DNA of 44,679 bases from Methanomicrobiales archaeon (GCA_029907705.1 JARYLJ010000014.1:1-44679); one strand, 5' to 3'. Numbered from the stretch's first letter, positions 2,247-44,679 are shown. The notes: a model not told the origin generated them from the sequence alone. A program made the numbers and translations.

Positions 2247-2474
2247 TCAGCTGATCCTGGAGAGGCTCTTCATCATCTCCTTCTGTCTTCTTTTTTCCCT
2301 GATCTCATGTATGATGATGATGAAATTGACCCCGACCACAATCATGATGAGAAGCATGCTCACCAGGAACATTGAGCTTGCACCCTCCTCAATGAGAAAG
2401 ACCGCCCAGAGGAGGGCAACAAAAGAGATAAGGTAGAGCATGATCCATGTCCTGAACTTCTGGATATCAATCAT
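2247..2474 (-). CDS. Small two-helix membrane protein
   Basis: A 75-aa protein with two predicted transmembrane helices (about residues 10-28 and 33-55) and a short positively charged tail rich in Arg, Lys and Glu. It lies between two very AT-rich spacers and is transcribed in the same direction as the lipoprotein gene, with about 145 bp of AT-rich sequence between them, so it probably has its own promoter. No enzymatic motif is visible. It is called real because it is hydrophobic in the right pattern and fills its space. The function is unknown. Confidence 0.6.
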   Translation of the reverse strand: MIDIQKFRTWIMLYLISFVALLWAVFLIEEGASSMFLVSMLLIMIVVGVNFIIIIHEIREKRRQKEMMKSLSRIS

Positions 2475-2665
2475 TGCATTATAATTTAACTAAATTATTT
2501 ATATAAATTTCTATTTTTTTATATGTTATATAACTAAAAATAATCGATTTAAGAAATTAATTTATAGAAATATTAATAAATAAAGTAATTATAATTAAAT
2601 TAATAGTCGTCATGTAAAACAAACGGGTTTCATGATCGCATATCAGGAAAACGGACAATACATCT

Positions 2666-3643
2666 ATGCATGGCCCGAATCATATATCCAGACCCATCAG
2701 AAGACTGATCGAAGAGACAGAACGTATTGTTGCATCCGAATTGATCATTCATCGCGAGAGAGAATGTCCCATTTCCGGCCTGCTGCTCGACGTCTATTCT
2801 TATGATCTCGATCATAATGTCATTGTCTATCCTGCATCCTATCTAGGTCTGCTCAAGGATCTCGTCATCGCATGGAACTGTGCGAAACTCCTTCTGAGAG
2901 GAGTGGTGCATGGAACAGGAGATCTGAAGGTTCTCTCTTATTCAAAGGAAACTGCAATCACCGGGGGCGATCAGATCTATCTGGACATTCTGAAGGACAG
3001 CATGACGAAATCCCTCGATATTAACAGAAAAAAGAAGATAATTCCCCTAATATTTCATCTTTTCCACGAGGGAATATCCGAATTGCCTCTGGGAATTGTC
3101 TCGCACATCTTTCTTGCAAGGAATTACCCTCTGTTGAGAAATGCACAGGTGTATCTGCTCATCAAGGAAGGGATGTACGACATGCACGAACTTGTCTCGG
3201 TCAAGGATCTGATTCCTCGCAGATATTTTGTTCTGCACAATGCCCTGTACTATACGAGGGATGCGCTGCTCGCCGACTATCTATCTGCATTTCCCCTCAA
3301 TCCTGTCATCAACATCCCGGAACTGCGACGTTTTAAAAATCTGGATCTCAAGGAGACGATGACGCATCGCTGGACAGGGTCAGCCTGGTACCATACCAAG
3401 ATTGCCGGTGACGACATGTTCACCCGCACCAGAAAGATCCTGGAGAACCATTTAATCGCATTCGATTCTCCTGTGAAACTCAGAGAGATATTCCTCGCAG
3501 GAAAAAACATTGCAGAACTCTGGACGGAGAGGATGGCGATGAAGCACTGGTTCCGCTGGGTAAATCCGGCGGAGGGTGTAAAATCCGAGGGCCAGATCAG
3601 GGAAATTGAAGAGCGGATGATTGCGAAGATCTTCACGAATTGA
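2666..3643 (+). CDS. Conserved-looking hypothetical protein (325 aa)
   Basis: A soluble, mixed alpha/beta-looking protein with balanced composition and no signal peptide or clear membrane helix. It begins MHGPNHISRP and ends at 3643, 15 bp before a TPR-like gene with which it is probably co-transcribed. I could not assign a family. It is rich in Leu, Ile and Arg, with a basic patch near residues 120-126 (NRKKK), and no obvious nucleotide-binding or metal motif is seen. The upstream spacer is AT-rich, fitting a promoter. Its position near the receptor and CheW/CheR genes may be coincidental. Confidence 0.65.
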   Translation: MHGPNHISRPIRRLIEETERIVASELIIHRERECPISGLLLDVYSYDLDHNVIVYPASYLGLLKDLVIAWNCAKLLLRGVVHGTGDLKVLSYSKETAITGGDQIYLDILKDSMTKSLDINRKKKIIPLIFHLFHEGISELPLGIVSHIFLARNYPLLRNAQVYLLIKEGMYDMHELVSVKDLIPRRYFVLHNALYYTRDALLADYLSAFPLNPVINIPELRRFKNLDLKETMTHRWTGSAWYHTKIAGDDMFTRTRKILENHLIAFDSPVKLREIFLAGKNIAELWTERMAMKHWFRWVNPAEGVKSEGQIREIEERMIAKIFTN

Positions 3644-3658
3644 GAAGGTAGTGCATTT

Positions 3659-4042
3659 ATGCAGAAAAATACGAAGTTCCATACAAATAAAAGGGAGAGG
3701 GAAGAAAGGTCAGATGAGCTTGCATTGCTTGCAGATATCAGCGCCTTCGAAGGAAGGTATGAGGAGGCGGAGAAGCTCTATATCGAAGCGCTTGCATCTG
3801 CCGACCAGAATGCCGATCTCTGGGCCTTCAGGGCCATCAATCTGAGTGGTGGTCTCGGGAAATGGGAAGAGGCTAGAAAGTGCTGGGAACGGGCTGAGAA
3901 GCTGGATCCTGAAATCCGAGAGATGACGAAGGGAGCAGCGGAGGTCGAGTCCAGTGAGTTGATGGAAAGACCAAAGCTCATCCGAAATATCAGATGCAAA
4001 TCGAGGAGTCGGGGTCTTCTCAGAGAGATCGAAAAGGATTGA
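3659..4042 (+). CDS. Small TPR-like protein
   Basis: A 127-aa protein. Residues about 21-88 match tetratricopeptide spacing: an ALLADI..FEGRYEEAEKLYIEAL helix pair, followed by a second repeat with W..A..L and KWEEARKCWERAEKLDP. TPR helices usually mediate protein-protein contacts. The N-terminus is short and very charged, and the C-terminal 35 residues are basic. It follows the 325-aa orphan by 15 bp, so the two probably form an operon and may act together. The two repeats are clear by eye; any specific partner is unknown. Confidence 0.65.
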   Translation: MQKNTKFHTNKREREERSDELALLADISAFEGRYEEAEKLYIEALASADQNADLWAFRAINLSGGLGKWEEARKCWERAEKLDPEIREMTKGAAEVESSELMERPKLIRNIRCKSRSRGLLREIEKD

Positions 4043-4051
4043 ATATGATAT

Positions 4052-4255
4052 TCAGGCCTGAATATCCGTCTTTCTCTCGATCCTGGTCTTTTCAATCTCC
4101 ACCAGTACAGGGGCAATGGTACCCGTATCCACACACCGCTTCGCCAGTGTTGTCAGACGTTTCACATACGTGATATGGGTCAGCTGAAATCCCACGAGGA
4201 GACCGAAGCAACCGGAGACAACCGCGATGATGGTGTAATCCGCTGGATTGATCAT
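4052..4255 (-). CDS. Small membrane-anchored protein, paralogue A
   Basis: A 67-aa protein with one N-terminal transmembrane helix (about residues 7-26) and a short cytoplasmic-type tail. The tail contains IAPVLVEIEKTR, which closely resembles IAPIITELEKES in the 59-aa product encoded immediately upstream on the same strand (4284-4463). The two are evidently diverged tandem duplicates. GGAGG lies about 8 bases before the ATG at 4255, supporting this start. It ends 10 bp from the convergent TPR-like gene. The function is unknown; the tail may be a docking element. Confidence 0.6.
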   Translation of the reverse strand: MINPADYTIIAVVSGCFGLLVGFQLTHITYVKRLTTLAKRCVDTGTIAPVLVEIEKTRIERKTDIQA

Positions 4256-4283
4256 CCTGCATCCTCCATGCCTGTAAAACCCC

Positions 4284-4463
4284 TCATGACTCCTTCTCCA
4301 GTTCGGTGATAATCGGAGCGATCGAATCCTCTCTCTCGCAGAGACCGGCGACGATATAGAATTTTCTGGCGTAATACCTCTCTGTCAGCAGATATGCCGC
4401 GATGAGTCCGATAATGAAAGAGAGGATGCCGATGGTCAGGTATGCAATAATTTCGAAGAGCAT
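4284..4463 (-). CDS. Small membrane-anchored protein, paralogue B (59 aa)
   Basis: A complete 59-codon frame, ATG at 4463 to TGA at 4284. It starts MLFEIIAYLTIGILSF, has one transmembrane helix (about residues 5-24), then RYYARKFY and a tail ending IAPIITELEKES. The helix-plus-tail layout and the IAP.. E.EK motif match the 67-aa protein encoded 28 bp downstream, so this is a tandem paralogue pair in one transcription unit. The AT-rich tract at about 4480-4640 would supply the promoter. The role is unknown, but the paired conservation argues that both frames are translated. Confidence 0.6.
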   Translation of the reverse strand: MLFEIIAYLTIGILSFIIGLIAAYLLTERYYARKFYIVAGLCEREDSIAPIITELEKES

Positions 4464-4785
4464 TCCACTTGCCCTCTTTATTGATTTTAATATTTAATAT
4501 ATTTTTATATATATTAAAATTATTATTTATTTTTATAATTGAATTATATATGATAATATAATTTAAATTTTAAATATTCTCCAAAATTAACTAATAAATA
4601 TAAATAAAAAATTATAAATATAATAAATTTAAAATTACATTTTGTAACTGATCTCATCCCGGATGGATGAAAAAAAGCGAGGAGCCCTATACGGACTCCC
4701 ATGCCATACTCATCCATCTGACCTTCATGAAGGCAGGGATGGAGCAGATCTTCCAGAAGAAGGGGACAGGAGTTGATAAATTTAG
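4464..4785. promoter_or_regulatory. AT-rich divergent promoter region
   Basis: Positions about 4475-4640 are almost entirely A and T with many TATA-like words, and lie between the minus-strand paralogue pair and the plus-strand receptor gene. A single TATA box cannot be picked. From 4650 to 4785 composition returns to normal. Two small overlapping plus-strand frames begin there (ATG at 4663, 37 codons, and ATG at 4667, 69 codons running into the receptor gene). Neither is recognisable and either could be a leader peptide or chance. Confidence 0.5.
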
Positions 4786-6783
4786 ATGCCTGCAACAGAA
4801 TCGGTTTCCGGTAAACAATCGAGGAATCGTATCAGGACAAGAAATGCCTCCCATGATCCGGAGAGCAGCGCAATGAAGCAATCCATCGAGCCATCGATGC
4901 AGGAGGAATCTTCCTACGAGATTAAGAAGCGATACGAGACTTTCCTGTACCATAATCCACTGCCCATATCGATAATCGATCACCAGTTCAATATGCTGGA
5001 CGTGAACAGGGCGTACGAAGAGCTCATGCGACAGCCCAGGGAACGGCTGCTGTCGATGAGCGCAGCCGATTACAGGATAAAACTACTCTCCGGGGATAAG
5101 ACAGAGAAGACCTTTAAAGAGAAGAAACCGACCAAATGCGAGCTGGAAATAACCTTCAACGACGGTAAAAAGAAGATCGTCGAACAGTACGGCATCCCGC
5201 TCCAGATCGAAGATGGGGAAGTCAGTACCGCTTACTTTATCTTCAATGATATTACGAGGCAGAGAGAAGGCGAATGGGAGATTCAAAAGCAGATGGAACG
5301 CATCAAATCGCTTCAGAAGCGTTCAGAGACGATCGTGCAGCTCAATCCGATGCCCATTCTTCTCATCGATACATCGTTCAAAGTGGTCGTCAGCAACGAT
5401 GCCTTCATCAGTATGAGTGGTATCAAAAAAGAGGCGATACTGGGCATGTCTGTTCGGGATTTCAAAGTGCTCGAACAGAAGGGGGAAGGTCTGAAGCAGG
5501 TCATTCAGCAGAAGAGAAGGACCTTCGGAGAAGTGACCGTGGATCTTCCCAGCGGTGTGCATGTGCTGGAACAGTATGGCATCCCCATACAGGACGAGGG
5601 GGGAGAGCTGCTGAATATTCTTATCGTATACAACGATATCACGGAGAGGAGAGAGAAGGAGAAACAGATTCAGCAGCTGATGAAAGAGACACGCGAGAAA
5701 TCCGACCTGCTCGAAAGGAGTGCGGGTGAACTGGAAAATTCGCTTAAGGCACTCGCGAAAGGGGATCTCACCACCGGTGTCCAGATTGCAGATGCAGATC
5801 CCCTCACCAGGGCGAAGAACGACTACAATGCAGCAATCGACGCAATCAAATCGCTGCTGATGGAGGTCACGAAGGCGGTCAGGCAGGTGGAGGTGAGCAT
5901 ACAGGATTCCAGCAAGGGAACCGACGAGGTGGCGAAGGCGGCCGAAGGTGTGGCATTCGCTGCACAGAACTGCTCGGAGAATACGAGGAAACTCCTTGAG
6001 CAGATCGATGAGATAAACCGGGAGATCTCGGAACTCACGGGCACGATAAAGGGAGTCTCGGTCACTTCGCAGGAGATCTCGCAGAGAGCCCAGAAGGTTA
6101 CCCAGGAGGGTGCGAATGCAAAGGATCTGGGAAAACAGGTCCATCAGAAGATGCAGGCCGTCGAAAAGATTGCACAGCAGAGCGTGGAGGAGATCACCAA
6201 GCTGTCAGAGCAGATGAGGGAGATCAGCAATATCGTCAGGCTGATTACGGAGATAGCGAATCAAACGAACCTGCTCGCATTAAATGCGGCAATCGAGGCG
6301 GCCAGAGCGGGAGAGCATGGGAGAGGGTTCGCAGTGGTCGCCGGCGAGGTGAGAAACCTGGCAGGAGAAGCGAAGAACGCGACCAATCATATCGAGGAGG
6401 TGATCGGAAATATCACCAGAATGTCTGAAAGGACCGCGGTCTCCATGAAGAGTTCATATTCCGAGCTCCAGACCGGCATCGAGAGTGTCAACAGGACCAT
6501 CGAGGCGCTGAACCAGATCATACAGGAGACCGATGTAGTGGCACGAGGCATCTTGGACATCTCCAGGTCCAACGAGAATCAGGCAACGGCGACCAATAAC
6601 GTCATGCAGCGGGTGGAGAAGGTGGTGTACCTCACCAAGGAGACTCAGAAGCAGGTGGAGGATATGGCCGCTCTTGCCGAGGAGACCAGCGCCTCTACGG
6701 AGGAGGTGGCCAGCGCATCGCACGAAGTCAACGAGATGGCCCAGCGTCTGCAGAAGATGATCGGCCAGTTCAAATTGAATTGA
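4786..6783 (+). CDS. Soluble methyl-accepting chemotaxis protein with two PAS domains
   Basis: A 665-aa chemoreceptor that should control CheA through CheW. No transmembrane helix is present, so it senses inside the cell. Order: a variable N-terminus (1-45), PAS 1 (about 48-160, NPLPISIID), PAS 2 (about 182-290, NPMPILLID), a HAMP-like stretch (about 310-365), then the long helical signalling domain. The conserved hairpin tip is near residues 490-525 ([19 protein letters not shown], then [12 protein letters not shown]). The two PAS domains are similar and look duplicated. There is no C-terminal CheR-tethering pentapeptide. TAG stops the frame just before ATG 4786; a later in-frame ATG at 4873 with GGAG nearby is an alternative start. 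The PAS ligand cannot be read from the sequence. Confidence 0.93.
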
Positions 6784-32540: not shown

Positions 32541-32620
32541 TATAAATTATACATATAATTGATTATAATATATATATTATATATATTTTATATCGGTTAC
32601 ATATATATTCACATATGTGG
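32541..32620 (+). promoter_or_regulatory. AT-rich promoter of the pst operon
   Basis: An alternating TATATA-rich tract precedes pstS. Several TATA boxes are possible, for example TTATATATAT near 32577-32586 and ACATATATAT near 32600. Alternating TA runs are self-complementary and could form cruciform or hairpin structure. A phosphate-responsive operator cannot be identified by eye. Confidence 0.4.
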
Positions 32621-32639
32621 ATGTATGACCGGTGGCCAG

Positions 32640-33515
32640 ATGAGACCACGTACCATTTCAGTTGCAGTTCTGGGATTGAGCATCCTCGTGATGCTCGTTG
32701 CCGCCCTGTTTGTGAGCGGTTGTTCTGAGGCGGGTGACCAGGGAGGCAAAGGGCTGACGCCCACACCGTCCATTCAGCGGATCACTGTCACCGGCTCGAC
32801 CACGGTCCTCCCGATCGCGGAGAAGGCAAAGGATGCCTTCGAGAAGAGACACATCAACGCAGACATCCAGATCAGCGGCGGGGGTTCCAGCGTCGGCGTG
32901 AAGGCGGTAGGAGAGGGGACCGCCGACATCGGCATATCCTCCAGGGACCTGAAATCCGAGGAGAATGCCATTTATCCGGACCTGGTAAAGCACGAAATTG
33001 CCATCGATGCCATCGTGATCATCGTCCATCCGAGCAACCCGGTGGAGGCCCTTTCGCTCGATCAGGTGCGGGGGATATTCAACGGCACCTTTACAAACTG
33101 GAAGGACCTGGGCGGCAAGGACGGGACGATCGTCGTGGTCGGCAGGGACAGCGCATCAGGCACCCGCGAATACTTCTTCGAAGCCGTCATGAAGAAGGAG
33201 AACTTCACGACACGGCAGGAGGAGTTCAACTCCAATGGTGGCATACAGCAGAAGGTGATGCAGACACCGGGTGCGATCGGATATGTGGGCCTCGCATACA
33301 CAGCCAATGTGAAGGCATTGAAGATCCAGGTGAAGGAGGATAGAATCGAACCCACGATGGATAACCTCCTGCAGAAGAAGTATCCGATCTCGCGCCCCCT
33401 CTTCATGCTCACGAAGGGCGAGCCCAGAGGGCTGGCGAAGGACTACCTGGAGTTCATCCTGAGCCCGGAGTGTCAGGGGATCGTCGCAGAAGCGGGATTC
33501 GTTCCCATCAGGTGA
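32640..33515 (+). CDS. pstS: Phosphate ABC transporter substrate-binding lipoprotein PstS
   Basis: 291 aa from ATG 32640, preceded by GGTGG four bases upstream; the in-frame ATG at 32625 and the Ile/Tyr-rich frame reaching 32559 are unlikely starts. The lipoprotein signal ends in LFVSGC (Cys28). The phosphate-binding loops are VTGSTTVLPI, ISGGGSSVGVKAV, and RDSASGTRE. The protein is anchored outside the membrane and delivers phosphate to the permease encoded 31 bp downstream. Confidence 0.94.
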   Translation: MRPRTISVAVLGLSILVMLVAALFVSGCSEAGDQGGKGLTPTPSIQRITVTGSTTVLPIAEKAKDAFEKRHINADIQISGGGSSVGVKAVGEGTADIGISSRDLKSEENAIYPDLVKHEIAIDAIVIIVHPSNPVEALSLDQVRGIFNGTFTNWKDLGGKDGTIVVVGRDSASGTREYFFEAVMKKENFTTRQEEFNSNGGIQQKVMQTPGAIGYVGLAYTANVKALKIQVKEDRIEPTMDNLLQKKYPISRPLFMLTKGEPRGLAKDYLEFILSPECQGIVAEAGFVPIR

Positions 33516-33546
33516 ACAGGGATCCCCAGCACTCTCCTTTATTTTC

Positions 33547-35574
33547 ATGAAGACAGAGTCATCTGTAGTGAGCGGGATCAGATTTCCATGGGCGGTTATT
33601 GAAACCGGTGCCTCAGGCGTCTCTGAAGGTCATGGGTGGAAATACCGGAAGGATCGCCTGATCAAATACCTGCTCTTCGCCATTGCGTTCTCGGCGGTCG
33701 CCGCCGTCTTCTTCATTCTCGTCTTTCTCGTGCGGGACGGTTACCATATCTTCCTGCAGACAGGATTGCCAGAATTCATCCTGGGATCTTACTGGAACCC
33801 GACCGGAGAGCCGCCGTCCTTCGGAATATTCCCACTCATCGTGGGCACATTCCTCGTCACGATCGGCGCCATGTGCATCTCTGTCCCCCTGAGCCTCGGG
33901 AGCGCAATTTTTATTTCATATATCGCCCCCCCGGGTGCGAAAAGGATCATCAAACCCGCCATCGAACTGCTCGCCGGGATTCCATCCGTCATATACGGCT
34001 TCTTCGGCCTGATCCTCCTGACCGACTGGATTCGAATCTTCTTTGACCAGCCCTCCGGCTCCAGCTGGCTCGCAGGTTCGATCCTCCTCGCCATCATGGC
34101 CCTCCCCACCATCACGAGCGTGGCAGAGGATGCGATCAGTTCTGTACCGAAGGAGTATATCGAAGGGAGCCTTGCGATCGGTGCAACGCGATGGCAGACG
34201 ATCCGGGGGGTGATACTGCCGACGGCCGTATCAGGCATACTGGCCGCCGTCATCCTCGGTTTCGGGAGGGCGATCGGGGAGACGATGGCGGTACTCATGG
34301 TGACAGGCAATGCAGCGATCGTCCCCGAGCCGATCTACAATGTCTTCTCGCCGATTCGGACACTGACGGGTACGCTGGGCATCGAGATGGGAGAGGTCGC
34401 ATTCGGGAGCATCCATTATCACGCGTTATTTGGAATCGCAGTCGTCCTTCTCGTCATCACGCTGGGCATCAATCTCTTCGCCACCTTCATATTCGGAAGA
34501 TTGGAGAGAAGAGGGGGGGAGAGGAGATCCATGGCCATGTCTTTCTGGCGGGAGTGGCTGAAGAGACGGGTCAGAATCGATCGCCTGACTGGGGGGGCGA
34601 GGGCAGTTCTGTTCGCGATCCCGATCGTTGTATTCATCCTCCTGATCTTCGATGGTGCCCCACGCATCCTTCTCATTCCGCTGACAGGCATGCTATCGTA
34701 TACGTTCCTCGCCGGAACATTCGGGGGGAGGCGTCTCGATCCGAGGAAGGTGGAGAAGGCCGTCTTTGCCATCCTCACGCTGATCATCCTCCTGGTTCTC
34801 GCGATCCTCGGCATCATCCTTGGCGAGATCGTGGTGAAAGGGGCCGGGGCAATCAGCTGGGATTTCATCACCCAGGCACCCAGGGATCTGGGCAGGGCAG
34901 GGGGCATCTTTCCTGCCATCGTGGGGACTATCTACCTCGTCGCCGGTGCGGTCGCCTTTGCCCTCCCGCTGGGAATCGGGAGTGCAGTATTCCTCGTCGA
35001 ATACACGAAAGAGAGCAGCATGACAAAAACAATCCGGACGGCGGTCGATCTCCTCGCCGGTACGCCCTCCATCGTCTTCGGGCTCTTCGGGTTCGCATTC
35101 CTCGTCCTCTTCCTGCGGTTCGGGATATCGATGATCGCCGGGCAGATCACGCTCGGGCTCATGATCCTTCCCACCGTCATCAGGACCACCGAGGAGGCAT
35201 TGAAGGTGGTGCCCGCCTCACTCAGGGAAGGGAGTTATGCCCTCGGCGCGACCAAATGGGAGACGATCAGGAGGGTCGTCCTTCCTTCGGCGATCCATGG
35301 CATACTGACGGGCGCGATCCTCTCCATCGGGAGAGCGGCAGGAGAGACCGCGCCGATCATGTTCACCGCTGTCGTGTTCAGTACCCGGTTCCTGCCCTCC
35401 TCCGCATTCGATCCCGTGATGGCCCTCCCCTACCACCTCTTCATCCTCACCACCACGGTGCCGGATGGAACCGCGAACAAATATGGCACCGCTTTTGTAC
35501 TCCTCCTCCTCGTCGTCTCCTTCTATCTGGTTGCCATCGTGATACGAGAAAGGCAGAGGAGGCGGTTCGCGTGA
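33547..35574 (+). CDS. pstCA: Fused phosphate permease PstC-PstA
   Basis: 675 aa, about twice the size of a single Pst permease. The first half (about residues 35-320) is PstC-like, with its EAA loop [17 protein letters not shown] near 205-221. The second half (about 330-672) is PstA-like, with [17 protein letters not shown] near 560-576, and has extra hydrophobic helices at its start. Normally these are two genes. At the joint an in-frame ATG (34531, MAMSFW) is preceded five bases earlier by GAGGAG, so a separate PstA might also be initiated. The frame is continuous with no stop. It overlaps pstB by 4 bp (GTGA). Confidence 0.9.
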
Positions 35575-36347
35575 CAATTTGTCTCGAAGAAGAGGATATC
35601 GTTCTGGAGACGAGAGCGCTGAATCTCTGGTACGGAGAGAAGCAGGCGCTGGAGGATATCACGATCAGCATTCCGAAAAACAAGGTGACCGCACTGATCG
35701 GCCCCTCCGGCTGCGGAAAATCCACACTCATCCGCTGCTTTAACCGGATGAACGATCTCATCGATCGGGTCAGGGTGGAAGGCTCCATCCTGTTCAACAG
35801 ACAGGAGATCAACTGCAGGGATGCCGATATTTTCGGGATCAGGAGGAAGATCGGGATGGTCTTCCAGAAGCCCAATCCATTTCCGAAGTCGATATACGAT
35901 AATGTCGCTTACGGGCCGCGAATCCATGGTGTCAATGACAGGCGGAGACTCGACCGTATGGTGGAGGAGAGCCTGAGGCATGCCGCTCTCTGGGAGGAGG
36001 TGAAGGATCGACTTCACGACTCCGCGATGGGGCTCTCAGGAGGTCAGCAGCAGCGGCTCTGCATCGCGAGATCCCTCGCGATCGAGCCAGAGGTGATACT
36101 GATGGACGAGCCCTGTTCCGCCCTCGATCCAATAGCGACCGCCAAGATCGAGAACCTGATGGAGACACTCATTGAAAATTATACAGTGGTGATCGTGACA
36201 CACAATATGCAGCAGGCAGCGAGGGTGAGCCAATATACGGGTTTTATGTACATGGGGAGACTGATAGAATTCGGCGAAACAGAGAGGATATTCGAGCATC
36301 CATCCGAAGAATTGACGGAGAAGTATATTACAGGCAAATTCGGGTAG
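35571..36347 (+). CDS. pstB: Phosphate ABC transporter ATP-binding protein PstB
   Basis: 258 aa, starting with GTG 35571 inside the overlap with the permease stop; GGAGG lies about 8 bases upstream. Walker [10 protein letters not shown] is at about 44-52, the Q-loop at [11 protein letters not shown], the ABC signature LSGGQQQRL near 155 and Walker [14 protein letters not shown]. All match PstB closely. An open frame extends far upstream through pstCA in another frame and is spurious. It is followed after 6 bp by phoU. Confidence 0.96.
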
Positions 36348-36353
36348 GGTACA

Positions 36354-37004
36354 ATGCCAGAAAAATTCCACCATGAATTGAAGACCCTGAAACAGGACAC
36401 CCTGCAGATGGGTCAGTTTGCATTCGACATGCTGGACAGGGCACTGGAGGCGTTGAAGACGCAGGATCTCCTGCTGGCAGAGAATGTGCAGGCGAGAAAG
36501 GTGATGCTGGCGCATTTCGACGAACAGATAGAGGACAAGTGCTTCAGGCTCATCGCTCTCTACCAGCCCATGGCGAAGGACATGCGCATCATCGCCTGCA
36601 CGCTGAAGATGATCACCTACCTGACCAGGATCGGCCGATACGGAAAGGATATCGCAAAGGCGGTGCCCGAGCTCTCTGATCAGCCGCACATCCGCGAGCT
36701 CATGAGCATCCCGCACATGGGTGAAGTGGTCTCTTCGATGATCGCAGATTGCCTGAAGGCGTACGAGCACGAGGACATCTCGTTCATCAGCAGCATTTCC
36801 GCGAGAGACGACACCGTGGATGCGCTCCGGCACTCCATTTTCCGCGAATGCATCACCTATATGATGGAGGATCCGAAGAATATCACGCGCTGCACGAATT
36901 ACGTGATGATCGCAAGATACCTGGAAAGGTGCGGGGATCATGCCTGCAAGATGGCAGAGAAGATCCATTACCTGGTCACCGGCGAGCGGATAGAGATAAA
37001 ATAA
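36354..37004 (+). CDS. phoU: PhoU phosphate-uptake regulator
   Basis: 216 aa of two PhoU three-helix repeats (about residues 1-105 and 115-216), including conserved stretches such as YQPMAKDMRIIACTLKMI and NYVMIARYLERCGDHA, the metal-binding E/D..R..D pattern. PhoU restrains the Pst transporter and, in bacteria, the PhoR sensor; archaea use it without PhoR-PhoB. It ends the pst operon. Confidence 0.94.
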   Translation: MPEKFHHELKTLKQDTLQMGQFAFDMLDRALEALKTQDLLLAENVQARKVMLAHFDEQIEDKCFRLIALYQPMAKDMRIIACTLKMITYLTRIGRYGKDIAKAVPELSDQPHIRELMSIPHMGEVVSSMIADCLKAYEHEDISFISSISARDDTVDALRHSIFRECITYMMEDPKNITRCTNYVMIARYLERCGDHACKMAEKIHYLVTGERIEIK

Positions 37005-37059: not shown

Positions 37060-38202
37060 TCAATGTTCCTGCGGTCGCAGGCGGCTCTCCTGATACAATC
37101 CAAAAGGTCGGTTGGTCACGAGCGAGCAGGCGATTCCGCTGAGGATCTCCCCCAACGGTGACCCTTTCTGGAGTTGGCGGTCTATCGACTCTGCCAGACT
37201 GCCCCGCTCAATCCTCTTCCGAATCACTGGCAGGTAGCGGAGCTCGTCCGCATTCGCCTCTGCCTCTGCCTTTCGCAGGAGCCATCCGAGCTCCTGCTTT
37301 AAATTCGCGGTTCCGCGATCGATCGCAGTCTCGAGCAGGTTCATCAGCTCCTCCGGGTCCTCCTCGATCTCCAGATCCCGGCATCTGAGAAGCGGGAGGA
37401 GCAGGGAAAGGATCGCCATATCCGACCGGATGCAATCCTGCTCGTCCAGCGCCTTTATCTCAAGGCATTCCCTGCTGAAACGGACGATCACACCCCGCGA
37501 GTTCAGCCATTCCTGACAGAGAATATCCGCTTTCGATGCACGCAGCTTCGAATAAATCCGTTCCTGTATCTGGAGATATTCACCGAGGGAGCGAAGCTTT
37601 TCAGGCAGAATATCATGGCAGATCTCGGGGATCCTCTCCTGGTTCTTCCTGTAATAGAAAAGCCGGTTGTCCATCCGATCCGTCCTGATCCCCTCGACGA
37701 CCGGCGAGGAGGCGGTGAGTGCCACCATGAATGGTAAAAGCGATCGGATCCTGTTGTGGAGTCTGATCAAATCATCCTCGTTGTGATATGGAATATTGAT
37801 CTGCAGGGCCTGGATATTCAGCCAGCCATGCTGTCTGATATCGAAGAGCCGGTCGTATTCCCTGTAGATCTCTCCCTCATCGTGATCCCATGCACCGGTC
37901 ATATCCAGCCGGAGAAGGGGGTGCATCCCCAGCCCCATCAGCAGATAGCGAGGTGATGTGAACTGCAACAGCCTCCTCAGACCAGTCATCAGGTCCGATT
38001 CCAGGGCATGGATCTCCATCGCTGGTTTCGATGGCACCACCTCGAGGACATGCTTCTGGAGCTCCTTCGAGACGATCACCTCCCCCAGGGGGATCTCGTT
38101 CTTCAAACTGCCTCCAATCTCCGTCAGGATCCGATCGGAGATCGGGAGAGGCATGAACTGCGCATCGTTGATCGAGTACTCGTGCTCGGTTCCGAAGCTC
38201 AT
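37060..38202 (-). CDS. Glutamate-cysteine ligase-like carboxylate-amine ligase (GCS2 family)
   Basis: 380 aa. The start MSFGTEHEYSIND resembles the G-E-E core of GCS2 enzymes, which form an amide bond between a glutamate carboxylate and an amine with ATP. A second conserved stretch is LNIQALQINIPYHNEDDL, matching the H-x-H/N-x-P strand of the family. It overlaps the YkgJ-type gene by 4 bp (ATGA) and is the last gene of a four-gene minus-strand unit that also encodes a RimK-like ligase. This suggests a peptide-like or small-molecule pathway. The family call is moderately sure; the substrate is unknown. It is not near the expected length or context of a true gamma-glutamylcysteine synthetase. 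Confidence 0.72.
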   Translation of the reverse strand: MSFGTEHEYSINDAQFMPLPISDRILTEIGGSLKNEIPLGEVIVSKELQKHVLEVVPSKPAMEIHALESDLMTGLRRLLQFTSPRYLLMGLGMHPLLRLDMTGAWDHDEGEIYREYDRLFDIRQHGWLNIQALQINIPYHNEDDLIRLHNRIRSLLPFMVALTASSPVVEGIRTDRMDNRLFYYRKNQERIPEICHDILPEKLRSLGEYLQIQERIYSKLRASKADILCQEWLNSRGVIVRFSRECLEIKALDEQDCIRSDMAILSLLLPLLRCRDLEIEEDPEELMNLLETAIDRGTANLKQELGWLLRKAEAEANADELRYLPVIRKRIERGSLAESIDRQLQKGSPLGEILSGIACSLVTNRPFGLYQESRLRPQEH

Positions 38203-38693
38203 TCCATCTCCCGTGCGGGATGCGGGATCTCCGCCACCTTCTCGGTCTCCGGTTCGTCGATGGTGTTTATCACTCCGATTTCTGCATCCGAAAGCCTGCT
38301 CACGAGTCTGCGGATACTCCTCACCGCCAGAGCGAACTGCTCCTCATAGGCCTTCCTGTTGGATTCGAGATACGCGACGAGCGGGCAGATGCTTTTCTTC
38401 TTCAGAAAAATATCGATCACGCCATCCCTCACACCGAAGGTAAAAGGACCCGCAAGGCAGGTCTCCGGTTTATGTGAGTTCACACGGCACCTCCCCTGAT
38501 CCAGCAGTATGCAGCGGCCGTCTTCGTAGCATTTCAAACGCATGTACCCTGCATATTCGAAGCAGTGATCTGTCCCCAGCATTTCCTCAATCACTCTTCT
38601 CTGTTCCCCGGTCAGTGGGGTGTGCGCTCCGATGCAGCACGCTCCCCCGCACTTCATGCATATCGCGTACTCCTCCTCCTCGAACGATGACAT
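38199..38693 (-). CDS. YkgJ-type cysteine-cluster protein
   Basis: 164 aa. Cys12, Cys15, Cys19 and Cys20 (CMKCGGACC), then Cys44, Cys55, Cys61 (DGRCILL), Cys69 (GRCRV) and Cys79 (PETCLAGPF). The arrangement matches the YkgJ/UPF0153 family, thought to bind zinc or an iron-sulfur cluster. The C-terminal 55 residues are helical. It is placed 8 bp after the ATP-grasp gene and overlaps the GCS2-like gene by 4 bp, so it should act with the two ligases, possibly as a metal/redox component or as a modified substrate. Confidence 0.85.
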   Translation of the reverse strand: MSSFEEEEYAICMKCGGACCIGAHTPLTGEQRRVIEEMLGTDHCFEYAGYMRLKCYEDGRCILLDQGRCRVNSHKPETCLAGPFTFGVRDGVIDIFLKKKSICPLVAYLESNRKAYEEQFALAVRSIRRLVSRLSDAEIGVINTIDEPETEKVAEIPHPAREME

Positions 38694-38700
38694 ACGATGC

Positions 38701-39573
38701 TCACTCCCTCATGAGTTTGGAGATGATTCGGGCATATATGTCCGGATAGCATTCGTCCTCGCCCCCCTCCAGGGACGGGTTGTCGTTCACTTCGATCACC
38801 CAGGCGGAATGGTTGAACTCCTTCAGATCGACACCATAGAGCCCATTTCCTATCGCTCTCCCTGCATCCAGTGCGCGATCGATCACCATGGCGGGCACCT
38901 CGTTCACGGAGACGCTCCGTACCGCACAATAGACCATCTTTCCATTGATGGTCGCCTGGATCTTGAACGTCTCGCTGGGAATGATGTACTTGCATGCATA
39001 GAGAACCTCCCCGTCCAGCACCCCGATCCTCCAGTCGAATTCACTGGGGATGTACTGTTGGACAACGATCCAGTCGGAGAGTCTCATGAACTTCTTCGCG
39101 ATGCGTATGAACTCATGCCCGCTGGAGACTTTTTCCACCCTGGCCGAGAACGAGGTCGAGGGCTCCTTCAAAACGAGCGGTGACCCCAGTGAATCGAAGA
39201 GCTCCTTTGCCCTCTGCTCGTTCACCTCGTACTTCCTCAAAAAAACGGTCGCGGGGATCTGGACGTTCTGTTTCATCAGATGCAGATACATGTTCACCTT
39301 GTCGGAACAGATCTGGATCGAGTCGGGATCGTCGATGACCGGAACGTCATGGATGGCAGCCATCCTCGAAGCGACGAAGCTGACATTCATCGGATCCGTC
39401 CTGCTCCTGATGAACAATGCGTCCATCCCGGGTATCTTTTTGATATCCACGGGAAAGAGGAAATAGACGAGGTGTCCCAACCCTTCCGCGGCATCCCTCA
39501 GTTTTACCAGGGAATTCAGCTGGTCGGCATTACCGAGCGTCTGCCTGTCCACGAATACACCTAGGTTTCCCAT
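38701..39573 (-). CDS. RimK-like ATP-grasp ligase
   Basis: 290 aa. The ATP-grasp features are DDPDSIQICSDKVNMYLHL (entry helix), PLVLKEPS (the nucleotide-binding Lys strand), IVVQQYIPSEFDWRIGV (hinge and Arg) and VIEVNDNPSLEGG, the metal-binding Glu/Asn loop. The family includes RimK, glutathione synthetase and LysX, which add amino acids through acyl-phosphate intermediates. The gene overlaps the RLAN-like gene by 13 bp and precedes the YkgJ-type gene by 8 bp. Product not predictable. Confidence 0.88.
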   Translation of the reverse strand: MGNLGVFVDRQTLGNADQLNSLVKLRDAAEGLGHLVYFLFPVDIKKIPGMDALFIRSRTDPMNVSFVASRMAAIHDVPVIDDPDSIQICSDKVNMYLHLMKQNVQIPATVFLRKYEVNEQRAKELFDSLGSPLVLKEPSTSFSARVEKVSSGHEFIRIAKKFMRLSDWIVVQQYIPSEFDWRIGVLDGEVLYACKYIIPSETFKIQATINGKMVYCAVRSVSVNEVPAMVIDRALDAGRAIGNGLYGVDLKEFNHSAWVIEVNDNPSLEGGEDECYPDIYARIISKLMRE

Positions 39574-40259
39574 ACAGACGCCCCTGCGATCATCCTCTTC
39601 AGCACCCCCCTCTCCTCCCTCGTGAGCTTGGAGTACTTCACAGGGCTGAGCGACGAGAGGTAATGGCGATCGTCTTCCCGCACCGAGACGATATTCATGA
39701 GAGGTATTCGGAACAATCGGTACACCGCATCTGCTATACCTCTCAGATCGGAGTCGCCCTGCTGGATCTCCCCGAAGATGGAGACCATCGCATGGAGCTC
39801 AGCTCCCTCGCTGATCGGCTGGTAGCAGAATGGATATTTACCGCTGTTGGTGATATGCCTGATCACCTGCCTCGCAATCCATTCGTCTCTGAGAATACTG
39901 TACTCCGCTGGATCTGCAAAGTAGCTCAGGCTGTATGCGATCGCAGGCATCCTGATATAACCGTACGAGATCTCCCATCTGCAGACTGGAATGCCTGCTT
40001 TTTTTGCCTTTTCCAGGCATATGGGGACTACGAAGGCTTCAAGCAGCTCCCTGCTCGAAGGTGCCACGCTCAGACCCTTCATCTCGCTGCAGAGAATTTT
40101 ATAATATGTCTCCGATTTATAGTAATAGTCCTCGGCGACGACTCTGATGGTACCATCAGGATCTGTCAGGGCCACACACCTATCGCGTTGCATGAACCGA
40201 CGCACGACCTCGCGGAAATCCTCTCTTCTGTCCCCTGGCTCTGGCAATCTCGTCTCCAT
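39561..40259 (-). CDS. RimK-associated N-terminal-domain-like protein (RLAN-like)
   Basis: 232 aa from ATG 40259; a GTG directly before it is also possible. It shows CVALTDPDGTIRVVAEDYYY, WEISYGYIRMPAIAYSLSYF, and ITNSGKYPFCYQPI. This resembles, from memory, the RLAN domain usually fused to the N-terminus of RimK-like ATP-grasp proteins; here it is a separate gene overlapping the ATP-grasp gene by 13 bp. The domain's role is unknown, perhaps substrate presentation. It heads the minus-strand unit, with a candidate TATA box (TTTATATG, minus strand of 40356-40363) about 100 bp upstream. Confidence 0.6.
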   Translation of the reverse strand: METRLPEPGDRREDFREVVRRFMQRDRCVALTDPDGTIRVVAEDYYYKSETYYKILCSEMKGLSVAPSSRELLEAFVVPICLEKAKKAGIPVCRWEISYGYIRMPAIAYSLSYFADPAEYSILRDEWIARQVIRHITNSGKYPFCYQPISEGAELHAMVSIFGEIQQGDSDLRGIADAVYRLFRIPLMNIVSVREDDRHYLSSLSPVKYSKLTREERGVLKRMIAGASVWET

Positions 40260-40262
40260 CAC

Positions 40263-40971
40263 AGGAGCCGAGAATCAATCCGGTTCCCGAATGGTGGAAA
40301 TTGTTCGCTGAAATATCACTAATCATCGAATTTTCTGAATTTAAGGCTTTCCATACATATAAATCAGATTAACGCAGCGATAAGATTAGACCATGAATCT
40401 TCATGGTTTGATCCCCTCCTGTGAGCAGGAACTCGACCTCCATCGTGTTCATCGACGCCTCTCCCCTCGCCTGCCGATGCATGCGTGCTGATGCGTAGAT
40501 GCTCGTCAGGAAAGAAGCCCTGAATGGCAATCTCTCGGGTATGGTCATCCGCCCGCCAGTGCCAGCAGAGATGGCGGCAGGCAATCATTAACGGGAGAGA
40601 GGGAGGGCCGATTTAATGATTCGGGGTCGATCTCGCAGGTGATGAAAGAGGGAGGTGCGATATGGACATGTGATCATGCATATACCCGTGAATGTCGATT
40701 TTGATGCATCAGCCATCCATATCGCCCCCTCAAGTGATGGGGTGGGAGAAATGCGGACCGGGGTCGGTGAAGGACACACCCTGGCGGCGTATGATGAAGA
40801 GGTATTGCCGCATAAGAAAATATTTACGCTTCCGGTTTTCAGCTTGTAAGGACGATTCAGCCGGTGGCCCATACAGTCGTCACCGAGGGCATCCGCAAAG
40901 GAGAGGATCGCAACGGAGCCTCCAGAGACCTGAACGGGAATAGGCAGAATCGGAATGGCACTGTACCCCGA
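40263..40971. other. Divergent intergenic region with a palindrome
   Basis: About 700 bases between the ligase operon (minus) and the permease (plus). An AT-rich stretch at 40320-40372 holds a TATA box for the minus operon. Short open frames here (for example 40364-40588 minus, 40655-40849 plus) have no ribosome-binding site or recognisable product. A plus-strand frame open from 40864 reaches the permease start at 40972 but its first 36 residues look non-conserved. Confidence 0.45.
40390..40407. promoter_or_regulatory. 18-bp inverted repeat, candidate operator
   Basis: ACCATGAA (40390-40397), a 2-nt spacer, then TTCATGGT (40400-40407): perfect 8-bp arms. It lies about 27 bp upstream of the probable TATA box of the four-gene minus-strand ligase operon, where an archaeal activator or repressor dimer could bind. 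No protein was linked to it. Confidence 0.35.
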
Positions 40972-42355
40972 ATGATCAAGGCAATACTCGTCATCGCCCT
41001 GTTTCTGATGAGCACGATTCTGATGCTCTACCTGATACTGCGTAGACCGATCATCCATCTCAGATTCCGAAACAGGAAGATCAGTTTCAGCAGCTACTTT
41101 ACCGGAGCCCTGCTCGCTCCGGTGCTTCTGGTGTTTTCGGGTCTTCTCAATTATTCGCAGCTGATCGATGCCATTCACGGTAATGTCCATCTCAATCCGC
41201 TCGGCATCCTTCTTCTATTCTTTTCCATGGTCTTCATGAGCATCTTCCTGGACACCTCCGGCTTTTTCGAGTTCTGTGCACGCTCAGCACTGAAATAATG
41301 CGGGCGCCAGTGGTGTGAAACTCTTCCTCGCACTCTACTCTGTCGTTTCCATCCTCACCGTATTCACATCGAACGACATCATCATCCTCACTCTCACACC
41401 ATTCATCTATTATTTTGCCCGTGATGCCGGTATCGATCCAAGGCCTATCCTCTTCACCGAGTTCTTCGCGGCAAATACATGGAGTATGATGCTATATATC
41501 GGAAATCCAACGAACATCGTCATCGCCTCTGCATTCTCCCTCCGCTTCGACGAATATACATTATACCTGTTTCTTCCCACCATTGCGGCGGGGCTTTCGA
41601 ACCTTCTGCTGCTGTACTTCGTCTTTCGCAAAGCCCTGAAGGTTCCGCTTAAAAAGGAATGTACCTGCGACCCGGCGGGAGCACTGACCGACAGATGGGG
41701 TGCCATTCTCGGACTGGCGATTTTAACCGGTTGCATTATCGGTCTCGCCGTCGCGCCGTATGCCGGGGTGGAGATGTGGCAGGTCTCCGTCATCTTCGCC
41801 ATCGTGCTGCTCGGAATGCTCGCAGGAAGGGATATCTTGTGGGGGTTCATTCCGCGTGCAAACCTGAAAAACAACAATTCCAGCGTGAAAGCGACCGCTT
41901 ACCGTCTTCCCTGGAGCATCGCACCCTTTGTCCTCTCCCTCCTCGTCATGGTGGAGGCACTGAAGGTGTATGAGATCACGAGGGCGGTCGGAGATGTCTT
42001 TGCTGCCATCTCCGGAGGCTCGATCATCGTGAACACATTCATCTATGGATTTTCGTCTGCCTTATCGGCGAATGTCCTGAACAATATCCCCATGACGATC
42101 GCATTCGTTCCTGTGATGGAAAGCCTGCATGGACGCGAGCTGCTCGCCGCCGCATTTGCCACCACCATCGGATCCAATCTGGGGGCGAACCTCACACCGC
42201 TCGGTTCGCTCGCCGGTATCATGTGGATGAGCATCCTCAGTGCGAAGGAGTGCAGAATATCCTTCACAGCGTTCATGAAATATGGAGCGATCATCACCCC
42301 GATCACGCTCATTTCAGCCCTGGGCACGCTTTATCTCGAGTTGCTGATCTTCTGA
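40972..42355 (+). pseudogene. ArsB/NhaD-type ion permease split by a +1 frameshift
   Basis: A single polytopic carrier is encoded in two frames. Part one (ATG 40972 to TAA 41296-41298, 108 aa) ends FLDTSGFFEFCARSALK. Part two is open from 41294 and continues NAGASGVKLFLALYS, then TSNDIIILTLTPF, to 42355. Ignoring T41296 joins the parts seamlessly (LK-NAGAS). The second part has the family's TSND and GANLTPLGS motifs and about nine membrane helices. The family moves Na+, arsenite or dicarboxylates. This may be a pseudogene, a sequencing error, or a recoding site (AAA TAA T). If the second part were translated alone it would start at GTG 41315. Confidence 0.8.
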
Positions 42356-42503: not shown

Positions 42504-42980
42504 TCAGAGGTTCTTCAATGCGATGATATCCTGAACCCCCACCAGCTTCCAGATGCAGGACCGTTCTTCGGTGATGATCGTCTCCAGCGGGTCGGTCGGT
42601 GCATGCCCCAGAGCCGCAAGGATGTTCCTCGACAGCCCCTTTTCGCGGATCATCCGGACGAACTTCTCCCTGATGATCTTCTTCTCGATCGCGTCCTTCA
42701 CCTCCTCCAGACGGCCCTGCATGGTCACGAACATATAGCTGGAGAGGTCTGCCGAATACTTCTCGACCTCGACAGATACGTACGGATTGCGTCTGAAATA
42801 TGCGATCTTTTTACCGTATTTCGTGGAGAGGAAATACATGTGTGTTCCGTCGAATATATAGAGAAATGGAGCGACATACGGGTATTTATCCCCGATGAAG
42901 GCGATCCTGCTGATGTAGCCATCGGAGATGAGATGATCGTACTCCTCCTTCTCCAGTCTGGGAATTTTTACGATCTCCAT
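42504..42980 (-). CDS. Pyridoxamine 5'-phosphate oxidase-like split-barrel protein
   Basis: 158 aa. The FMN-binding split-barrel pattern is visible: YISRIAFIGDKYPYVAPFLYIFDG, TKYGKKIAYFRRNPYVSVEVE, and a helix near residues 93-115. Proteins of this family bind FMN or F420 and often reduce or oxidise small molecules; many are uncharacterised. It is a single gene, transcribed away from the carbonic anhydrase gene. No partner is apparent. Confidence 0.85.
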   Translation of the reverse strand: MEIVKIPRLEKEEYDHLISDGYISRIAFIGDKYPYVAPFLYIFDGTHMYFLSTKYGKKIAYFRRNPYVSVEVEKYSADLSSYMFVTMQGRLEEVKDAIEKKIIREKFVRMIREKGLSRNILAALGHAPTDPLETIITEERSCIWKLVGVQDIIALKNL

Positions 42981-43872: not shown

Positions 43873-44679
43873 TTATGCAGTTAGGCAGAAAGTGAAATTA
43901 TGTCTTCTGACCCCCGGCAGCGGGAGCGAAATTGGTGTCTGAGAGCGTATCTCAGATTCACATAAAGAAAATAGCCCTATTTCGGGTGGACGCCCGTATA
44001 GGGCTATTTTTATGCTGTCCGGGGCAAGGATGGCCTTATGGAGGACGTGGCTCAAGAGTTCCTTCTGTTGGTAGGGCTGGATGTGATCAAAAACATTCGT
44101 AAATTTATTCAGGGCAAGCATCACTAATTCTTGAGTGACGGACTTCCTTTCTATTTCCTCGATCTTCTCCTCTAAAGCCTGGATGCCGGTCTCAATCTCC
44201 TTCCTTCTTTTACCTAACTGATCCAGCTTGTCTTTGAGGAAAAGGCTACTGTCTTCGCTCGCCAGGGATGTCCATTTATTCATAATGCCGTCGGCAAAAT
44301 TCTTAATCTCCGTAAGCTCCTTCTGGAGGAGCGTTTTTTATTCTTTAAGTTGCGGGAGTTCCTTCTGCAATTTCTCATTGGTGGATTTGATGATGCTCTC
44401 CATGATGTCCTTTTTGGTGGAGAGCTCTTTGATCCTCTTAGGACAACTCCCTCGATTTCATCAGCAGGCAGCTTAAACTTGCACTCCATATTTTTGCAGA
44501 TGTAGTAATAATACCTCACACCCCTGGCCCCGGTTCCAGAGCGCCCCTCCATCTCCTTCCCACACTTCCCACACCAGAGAAGACCACCGTTTAGGATGTA
44601 GCTATGTTTGACAGGCTTTGCCTTGTTGTGTTTCGAGACGCAATTTTTCTTTAGGAGAGCCTGCACGCTATAAAACTTT
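43873..44679 (-). pseudogene. Remnant of a large serine recombinase (3' part)
   Basis: From the right edge the minus strand reads FYSVQALLKKN (recombinase domain), SYILNGGLLWCGKCGKEMEG and YYYYICKN (zinc ribbon with CxxC), then a coiled coil. The frame is interrupted: near 44440 it shifts (LRGSKSS versus RIKELSTKKDIMES), and TAA near 44340 stops the restored frame after QLKE. The second piece (ATG 44283 to 43873) continues the coiled coil and ends after IKIALYG. The catalytic domain lies beyond the window. It is a decayed mobile-element integrase of the large serine recombinase family, likely inactive. Confidence 0.85.
43971..44007. terminator. Long hairpin at the recombinase 3' end
   Basis: ATAGCCCTAT (43971-43980) pairs fully with ATAGGGCTAT (43998-44007); CGGG (43983-43986) and CCCG (43993-43996) pair inside it. 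T5 follows directly on the plus strand (44007-44011) and TTTTCTTT on the minus strand. It looks like a bidirectional intrinsic terminator, situated within the recombinase reading frame near its end. Confidence 0.55.

Follow-up and report, generated by a model that had tools for sequence, protein, structure and literature searches.

In the synthesis of glutathione, by GshA and GshB or by GshF, a ligase of the GCS superfamily is paired with an ATP-grasp ligase. RimK, MptN, CofF and ArgX/LysX are glutamate or aminoadipate ligases of the ATP-grasp family. Amidoligase systems of the general kind described here were reportedly predicted by Iyer et al. in 2009, and the archaeal set may be mentioned there. 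In Legionella adelaidensis (NZ_LR134436), a single operon encodes a fused RLAN-RimK protein, a GCS2 ligase and an N-formylglutamate amidohydrolase. The rlo operon of Pseudomonas aeruginosa also contains an uncharacterised ATP-grasp protein with peptide-related partners, but these are a retropepsin and an inactive transglutaminase, and neither RLAN nor GCS2 is reported there (PMC12239564). Matches to the GshA family in methanogens and Archaeoglobi have been noted as possible thiol genes (PMC7278568).

The window, a stretch of 44,679 nucleotides from a Methanomicrobiales archaeon, carries a four-gene unit on the minus strand at 37060-40262, which lies between a phosphate-uptake operon and a permease gene.

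32559-37004, plus strand: PstS-PstCA-PstB-PhoU operon for phosphate uptake, convergent with the ligase operon
38202-37060, minus strand: GCS2-type carboxylate-amine ligase (PF04107), 380 aa, Pfam score 122.6 bits
38693-38199, minus strand: YkgJ/CxxCxxCC protein (PF03692), 164 aa, Pfam score 37.5 bits
39573-38701, minus strand: RimK/ArgX-type ATP-grasp carboxylate-amine ligase, 290 aa, Pfam RimK (PF08443) score 40.8 bits
40262-39561, minus strand: stand-alone RLAN protein (PF14401), 233 aa with a GTG start, Pfam score 33.8 bits
40864-42355, plus strand: ArsB/CitMHS-type anion permease, divergent from the operon, with one frameshift near 41300

An earlier note, made from the sequence of the window, had described two different amide-forming enzyme families, RimK-like ATP-grasp and GCS2-like, packed together with a YkgJ-type and an RLAN-like protein. 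The unit is real, and profile searches placed each of the four ORFs in its family above the Pfam gathering cut-off (25 bits for RLAN, 21 for RimK, 23 for CxxCxxCC and 21 for GCS2). The 13-bp overlap of RLAN with the ligase and the 4-bp overlap of YkgJ with GCS2 were found as that note gave them, but the gap between the ligase and YkgJ is 7 bp rather than 8 bp. The start of RLAN is ambiguous (GTG at 40262, ATG at 40259 or ATG at 40196); the first 30 or so residues are absent from most orthologues and have low confidence in the structure model as well. Defence-system models gave no match.

Both ligases are predicted to be active. The ATP lysines K92 and K136 of the RimK-type ligase and its Mg ligands D249, E261 and N263 are invariant in 24 of 24 orthologues, and its nearest solved sequences are ArgX, LysX and RimK. 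It shares the ATP/Mg residues of RimK, MptN, CofF and ArgX/LysX, but differs from the characterised members in adjoining an apparently dead paralogue and in scoring 28-56 bits against NCBIfam equivalog cut-offs of 275-350. Membership of the MptN (55.7 against 350 bits), CofF (35.2 against 300), LysX (50.6 against 275.6) and RimK (27.9 against 331) families was rejected on these scores. In the GCS2 protein, an orthologue alignment shows the active-site residues E6, E8, Q134, N136, R180, R241 and E248 to be present, and plant glutamate-cysteine ligase can be aligned with it at the GTEHE motif, at the Q134/N136 strand and at R180. The loss of active-site residues from the 380-aa protein that would have refuted the earlier reading is not seen. 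The structure model of GCS2 (pLDDT 91.1) resembles YbdK and the plant enzyme in fold, with a more distant likeness to PafA/Dop. The protein nevertheless falls below every GshA/YbdK equivalog cut-off of NCBIfam, with a best score of 41 against 176.4 bits (YbdK family) and 15.6 against 249 bits for gshA_cyano.

The RLAN protein appears, from its model and alignments, to be a catalytically dead paralogue of the ATP-grasp ligase. Modelled by AlphaFold with 30 orthologues, the window RLAN gave a pLDDT of 89.6 and a pTM of 0.83. All of the best 50 Foldseek matches of the model in the PDB are ATP-grasp enzymes, including RimK, PsnB and LysX; the top match, ArgX (3vpb), has E=6.7e-9 and a TM of 0.56, and its alignment spans 219 columns for the 233 residues of RLAN. 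In a viral structure library, the top matches that carry names are ATP-grasp proteins, glutathione-synthase-like proteins or CarB. A sequence search of the PDB with RLAN and with YkgJ returned no usable match. By hhalign, the full RLAN set matches the ligase profile weakly, at 26.7 against a maximum of 24.1 in 100 column shuffles. A less diverged subset, made up of Archaeoglobaceae-, Methanocella- and Methanoperedens-like RLANs together with bacterial ones, scores 41.4, against 12.9 for the reversed profile and a shuffled mean of 14.7 (SD 2.6, maximum 24.3, n=150); this subset is one of several tried, and its P value is to be read accordingly. The fold result is independent of the choice of profile subset. 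The profile alignment sets RLAN 'CFAVNPYTCNSVTQV' against ligase 'LVVKEPSTSFSLRVEKV', with the ATP lysine replaced, and the aligned Methanocella-like RLAN has N and V at the two ATP-lysine positions of the ligase. No Lys, Asp or Asn is constant across the RLAN orthologue alignment, so that the ATP-binding lysine pair and the Mg ligands are missing. It is because the ATP-grasp fold and the profile homology to the ligase persist while these residues are gone that we read RLAN as a dead paralogue, and it is probably a partner of the ligase. At 34 of 37 loci the two genes share 4-35 bp, which would fit a stoichiometric complex. We found no precedent for RLAN as a pseudo-ATP-grasp protein in the literature that could be searched, where neither the term "RLAN domain", nor PF14401, nor a phrase for a degenerate ATP-grasp was found.

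The four-gene set is a conserved system, found in both methanogens and sulfate reducers among the archaea. The same gene order is found in 19 related loci and recurs across the window's family and Methanoregulaceae-like and Methanothrix-like genomes, with rearrangement in Archaeoglobaceae; the neighbours are therefore kept together in related genomes, and the lack of conservation that would have undone the earlier reading did not appear. Among 61 genomes of the window's own family and order, 16 have GCS2 homologues, and RLAN and the ligase share the GCS2 locus in every one of these that was inspected. In a wider sample of 345 genomes of the phylum (Halobacteriota), searched by profile and alignment, RLAN matches in 45, GCS2 strongly in 47 and YkgJ strongly in 45. 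All 45 YkgJ genomes also have GCS2, none has YkgJ without it, and a strong YkgJ is missing from two of the 47 GCS2 genomes (Fisher's test for co-occurrence, 1.6e-54, uncorrected for relatedness). In each of the 45 Halobacteriota genomes with an RLAN match, RLAN is a stand-alone gene, so its separate state, singled out by the earlier note, is the archaeal rule.

In the Archaeoglobaceae-like loci L075, L076 and L078, RLAN-ligase is convergent with a permease-GCS2-YkgJ operon, while in L077 and L079, YkgJ adjoins RLAN-ligase and GCS2 is on a different contig. Since YkgJ pairs here with either GCS2 or RLAN-ligase, the coupling is not mere synteny, and this re-pairing is hard to explain by common ancestry of the block alone. 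Methanocella- and Methanoperedens-like genomes and the genome G003 have RLAN-ligase without GCS2 or YkgJ, so the core does not require the GCS2 step; in the Methanoperedens-like locus L074, a GNAT gene adjoins RLAN-ligase. Single members have been lost in L023, L028, L085 and L036-L038, and in both L028 (genome G019) and L023, it is YkgJ that is absent next to an intact GCS2. In one genus of the window's family (g2), RLAN-ligase is retained, YkgJ is gone, and GCS2 lacks E6 and two core segments and looks decayed from its sequence.

The permease recurs as a fifth partner. In the window and L024 it is divergent from the operon; L026, L037 and L038 have it downstream within the operon, and L085, a locus with neither GCS2 nor YkgJ, has it in the operon after the ligase. 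In the Archaeoglobaceae-like genomes it is operonic with GCS2 and lies upstream of it. The window permease, read in two frames, is 52 and 57% identical to that of L026. These two belong to one of two subfamilies, about 25% identical to each other, and the others fall in the second; permeases of the two subfamilies may play different parts. Of 21 Methanomicrobiales loci, 10 have Pst/PhoU-type phosphate genes at a distance of up to about 8 kb (the window, L030-L033, L036-L038, L085 and L088), and in five of them (L032, L033, L037, L038 and L085), these genes are upstream of and co-directional with RLAN. Near 16 loci of other families, no phosphate genes were found except a 26%-identical PiT in L073. 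The weight of this phosphate linkage is limited by the shared ancestry of two families and by unequal flank lengths between the loci.

The YkgJ protein has eight conserved cysteines in the orthologue alignment (C12, C15, C19, C20, C61, C69, C79 and C103). It is probably an Fe-S or Zn protein, and a metal role is likely. FliB, the only characterised protein with a YkgJ-type motif in the literature searched, also has a cysteine-rich, PF03692-type motif and eight conserved cysteines; it binds one [4Fe-4S] cluster through the cysteine motif and methylates lysine with SAM (PMC8598068). However, FliB is a larger protein and a flagellin methyltransferase.

How far has this set been seen before? The earlier note knew of none characterised with it. 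We narrow this to the split RLAN and YkgJ, which are the archaeal part, as the RLAN/RimK/GCS2 core has a bacterial precedent in the L. adelaidensis operon, whose GCS2 and ligase are 34% and 33% identical to the archaeal ones. There, RLAN is fused and about 45 residues shorter in mid-domain, whereas archaeal RLAN is split and full-length, and the third gene is that of the amidohydrolase; neither YkgJ nor a permease, both present in the archaeal form, is seen there. In Azospirillum, RLAN-RimK is accompanied by a GNAT-C39 peptidase. Fusion to an ATP-grasp domain is the usual state of RLAN, though not a universal one. RLAN is fused in all three plasmid loci of bacteria that were scanned by Pfam and is a separate ORF in the window and all archaeal loci; the bacterial sampling consists of plasmids, in which the RLAN copies were reached by searching with the ligase and a tblastn search with RLAN itself gave no match. 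The short middle of bacterial RLANs may be why the ATP-grasp origin previously went unnoticed. We regard the archaeal operon as a conserved variant of an amidoligase system predicted for bacteria; the one structural finding is that RLAN looks, by model and alignments, like a pseudo-ATP-grasp protein.

We propose, with moderate confidence, that the operon encodes an ATP-dependent, amide-forming pathway with two ligases, following the logic of glutathione synthesis, to a small, probably glutamate-containing molecule, with an RLAN-ligase heteromer, YkgJ as an accessory, the permease and, in Methanomicrobiales, a linkage to genes for phosphate uptake. GCS2 would couple an amine to the carboxylate group of an amino acid, glutamate being the most likely one, after which the RimK-type ligase would add a second residue; the result would be a small glutamyl peptide or amide that is probably anionic, although the two steps might occur in the other order. 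RLAN, made in step with the ligase, would form a heteromer with it and bind or orient the substrate. YkgJ, as an accessory eight-cysteine metal protein, may modify or protect the product, and the ArsB/CitMHS permease may move substrate or product. The direct basis of this proposal is the gene set, its conservation and co-occurrence, the intact active sites of the ligases and, by model and alignment, the fold of RLAN and its missing residues. We also count in its favour that the bacterial neighbours of RLAN-RimK (GCS2 with N-formylglutamate amidohydrolase; GNAT with C39 peptidase) all act on peptides, N-acyl groups or glutamate. Counted against it are the genomes with RLAN-ligase but no GCS2 or YkgJ, the loss of YkgJ in L028 and L023, and the decayed GCS2 of genus g2. 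The two permease subfamilies and the weak profile score of the full RLAN set are also counted against it.

Other products can be considered for the same genes. Rather than make a free small peptide, the ligases might lengthen or cap the tail of a coenzyme or protein that already exists, as is done by MptN for tetrahydrosarcinapterin, by CofF for F420 and by RimK for ribosomal protein S6. The ligase matches MptN (55.7 bits) and CofF (about 35 bits) over most of its length, the 98.9%-complete genome of the window has no protein above the MptN or CofF cut-off, and the polyglutamate of methylofuran is made by ATP-grasp enzymes that include an MptN relative (PMC8141765). However, these scores are far under the 350 and 300 bits that the equivalogs require, neither a GCS2 partner nor a permease would be expected, and the patchy presence of the operon within families (31 of 61 genomes in family f5) is unusual for an essential coenzyme step, so we consider this reading unlikely, if the most serious of the competing ones. 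The earlier note had offered a thiol or a protein tag as possible products. A low-molecular-weight thiol, for example, gamma-glutamylcysteine or a glutathione analogue, would suit the GshA plus GshB layout of GCS2 with ATP-grasp and the published reading of the methanogen and Archaeoglobi matches (PMC7278568). Yet the archaeal GCS2 scores far too low for the GshA and YbdK equivalogs, the ATP-grasp protein is a RimK/ArgX match and not a GshB one, and no GSH reductase-like gene recurrently adjoins the operon loci; we think a thiol quite improbable. Compared with glutathione synthesis, the archaeal set also has RLAN and YkgJ as extra members. The context argues that those GshA-family matches which fall in this subfamily are part of a different pathway, of the RimK type.

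The resemblance of RLAN and the ligase, in fold or sequence, to ArgX/LysX and PsnB could instead point to modification of a ribosomally synthesised peptide or an amino-carrier protein, with graspetide or LysW-like logic. This is weakened by the small ORFs within 1.5 kb of the 37 loci, among which there is no conserved tag, carrier or precursor as a graspetide would need, only antisense shadows and lineage-specific proteins, and it seems to us very improbable. That the four genes are chance neighbours, or the remnant of a general operon without joint function, is hardly credible: single members have indeed been lost in several loci, but the strength of the GCS2-YkgJ co-occurrence, even if uncorrected for relatedness, and the re-pairing of genes in Archaeoglobaceae are against it.

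Beyond the proposed two-ligase pathway, RLAN might define a class of heteromeric ATP-grasp ligases with an obligatory, anciently duplicated dead subunit, and the archaeal RLAN-ligase-YkgJ-GCS2 set might make an undescribed anionic glutamyl metabolite under phosphate limitation. We regard this combined suggestion as speculative and doubtful as a whole. The analysis brings together, as a single testable pathway in organisms central to methane production, genes annotated here and there as "glutamate-cysteine ligase" in methanogens and Archaeoglobi. The orphan RLAN domain gains a likely origin as a dead ATP-grasp paralogue, which would explain its constant adjacency or fusion to a RimK-type ligase. 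Should the product be found, it would add a new class of metabolite or thiol in archaea, and if RLAN proves to be obligatory, a very large enzyme superfamily would have a regulatory architecture of a new kind.

The ligase operon adjoins the phosphate genes pst-phoU, which occupy positions 32559-37004 of the window. This flanking is seen repeatedly in Methanomicrobiales, in the compared loci L030-L033, L036-L038, L085, and L088 as well as in the window, and in five loci pst-phoU is upstream of the operon and co-directional with it. In the Methanoregula-like loci L023, L028, L029, L086, and L087, GCS2 is followed by a gene for an ADP-forming acyl-CoA synthetase, in most of them co-directional with GCS2 and some 70 bp beyond it. 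The other features considered in the window are as follows.

40864-42355: ArsB/CitMHS permease, split near 41300 between two reading frames
42504-42980: pyridoxamine-oxidase-like (PNPOx) protein
43873-44283: ORF adjoining the recombinase zinc-ribbon ORF
44280-44666: recombinase zinc-ribbon domain

A PNPOx-like protein is also found near the operon in L026, L038, L083, and L084, a recurrence that spans the window's family and Methanothrix-like genomes. The break in the permease is either a sequencing error in the draft genome or a recent pseudogene. The two ORFs at 43873-44666 lie at the contig end and together may be what is left of a serine recombinase, probably one from a mobile element.

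The RLAN-RimK fusion of a Pseudomonas aeruginosa plasmid (L090, 3272-6437) faces a PLP aminotransferase gene, a context unlike both the GCS2 and the GNAT types of bacterial neighbourhood.

The operon itself also varies. The ATP-grasp ligase of the Methanothrix-like loci L080-L084 is longer at the C-terminus by some 45-50 residues, an extension absent elsewhere. One genome from the window's family (L025) has a 3.3-kb insertion (2310-5626) between the ligase and YkgJ. YkgJ has been lost in L036, L037, and L038, where GCS2 is truncated and diverged, with about 33% identity and a long branch. The state of these three loci looks like that of a GCS2 step caught partway through loss.
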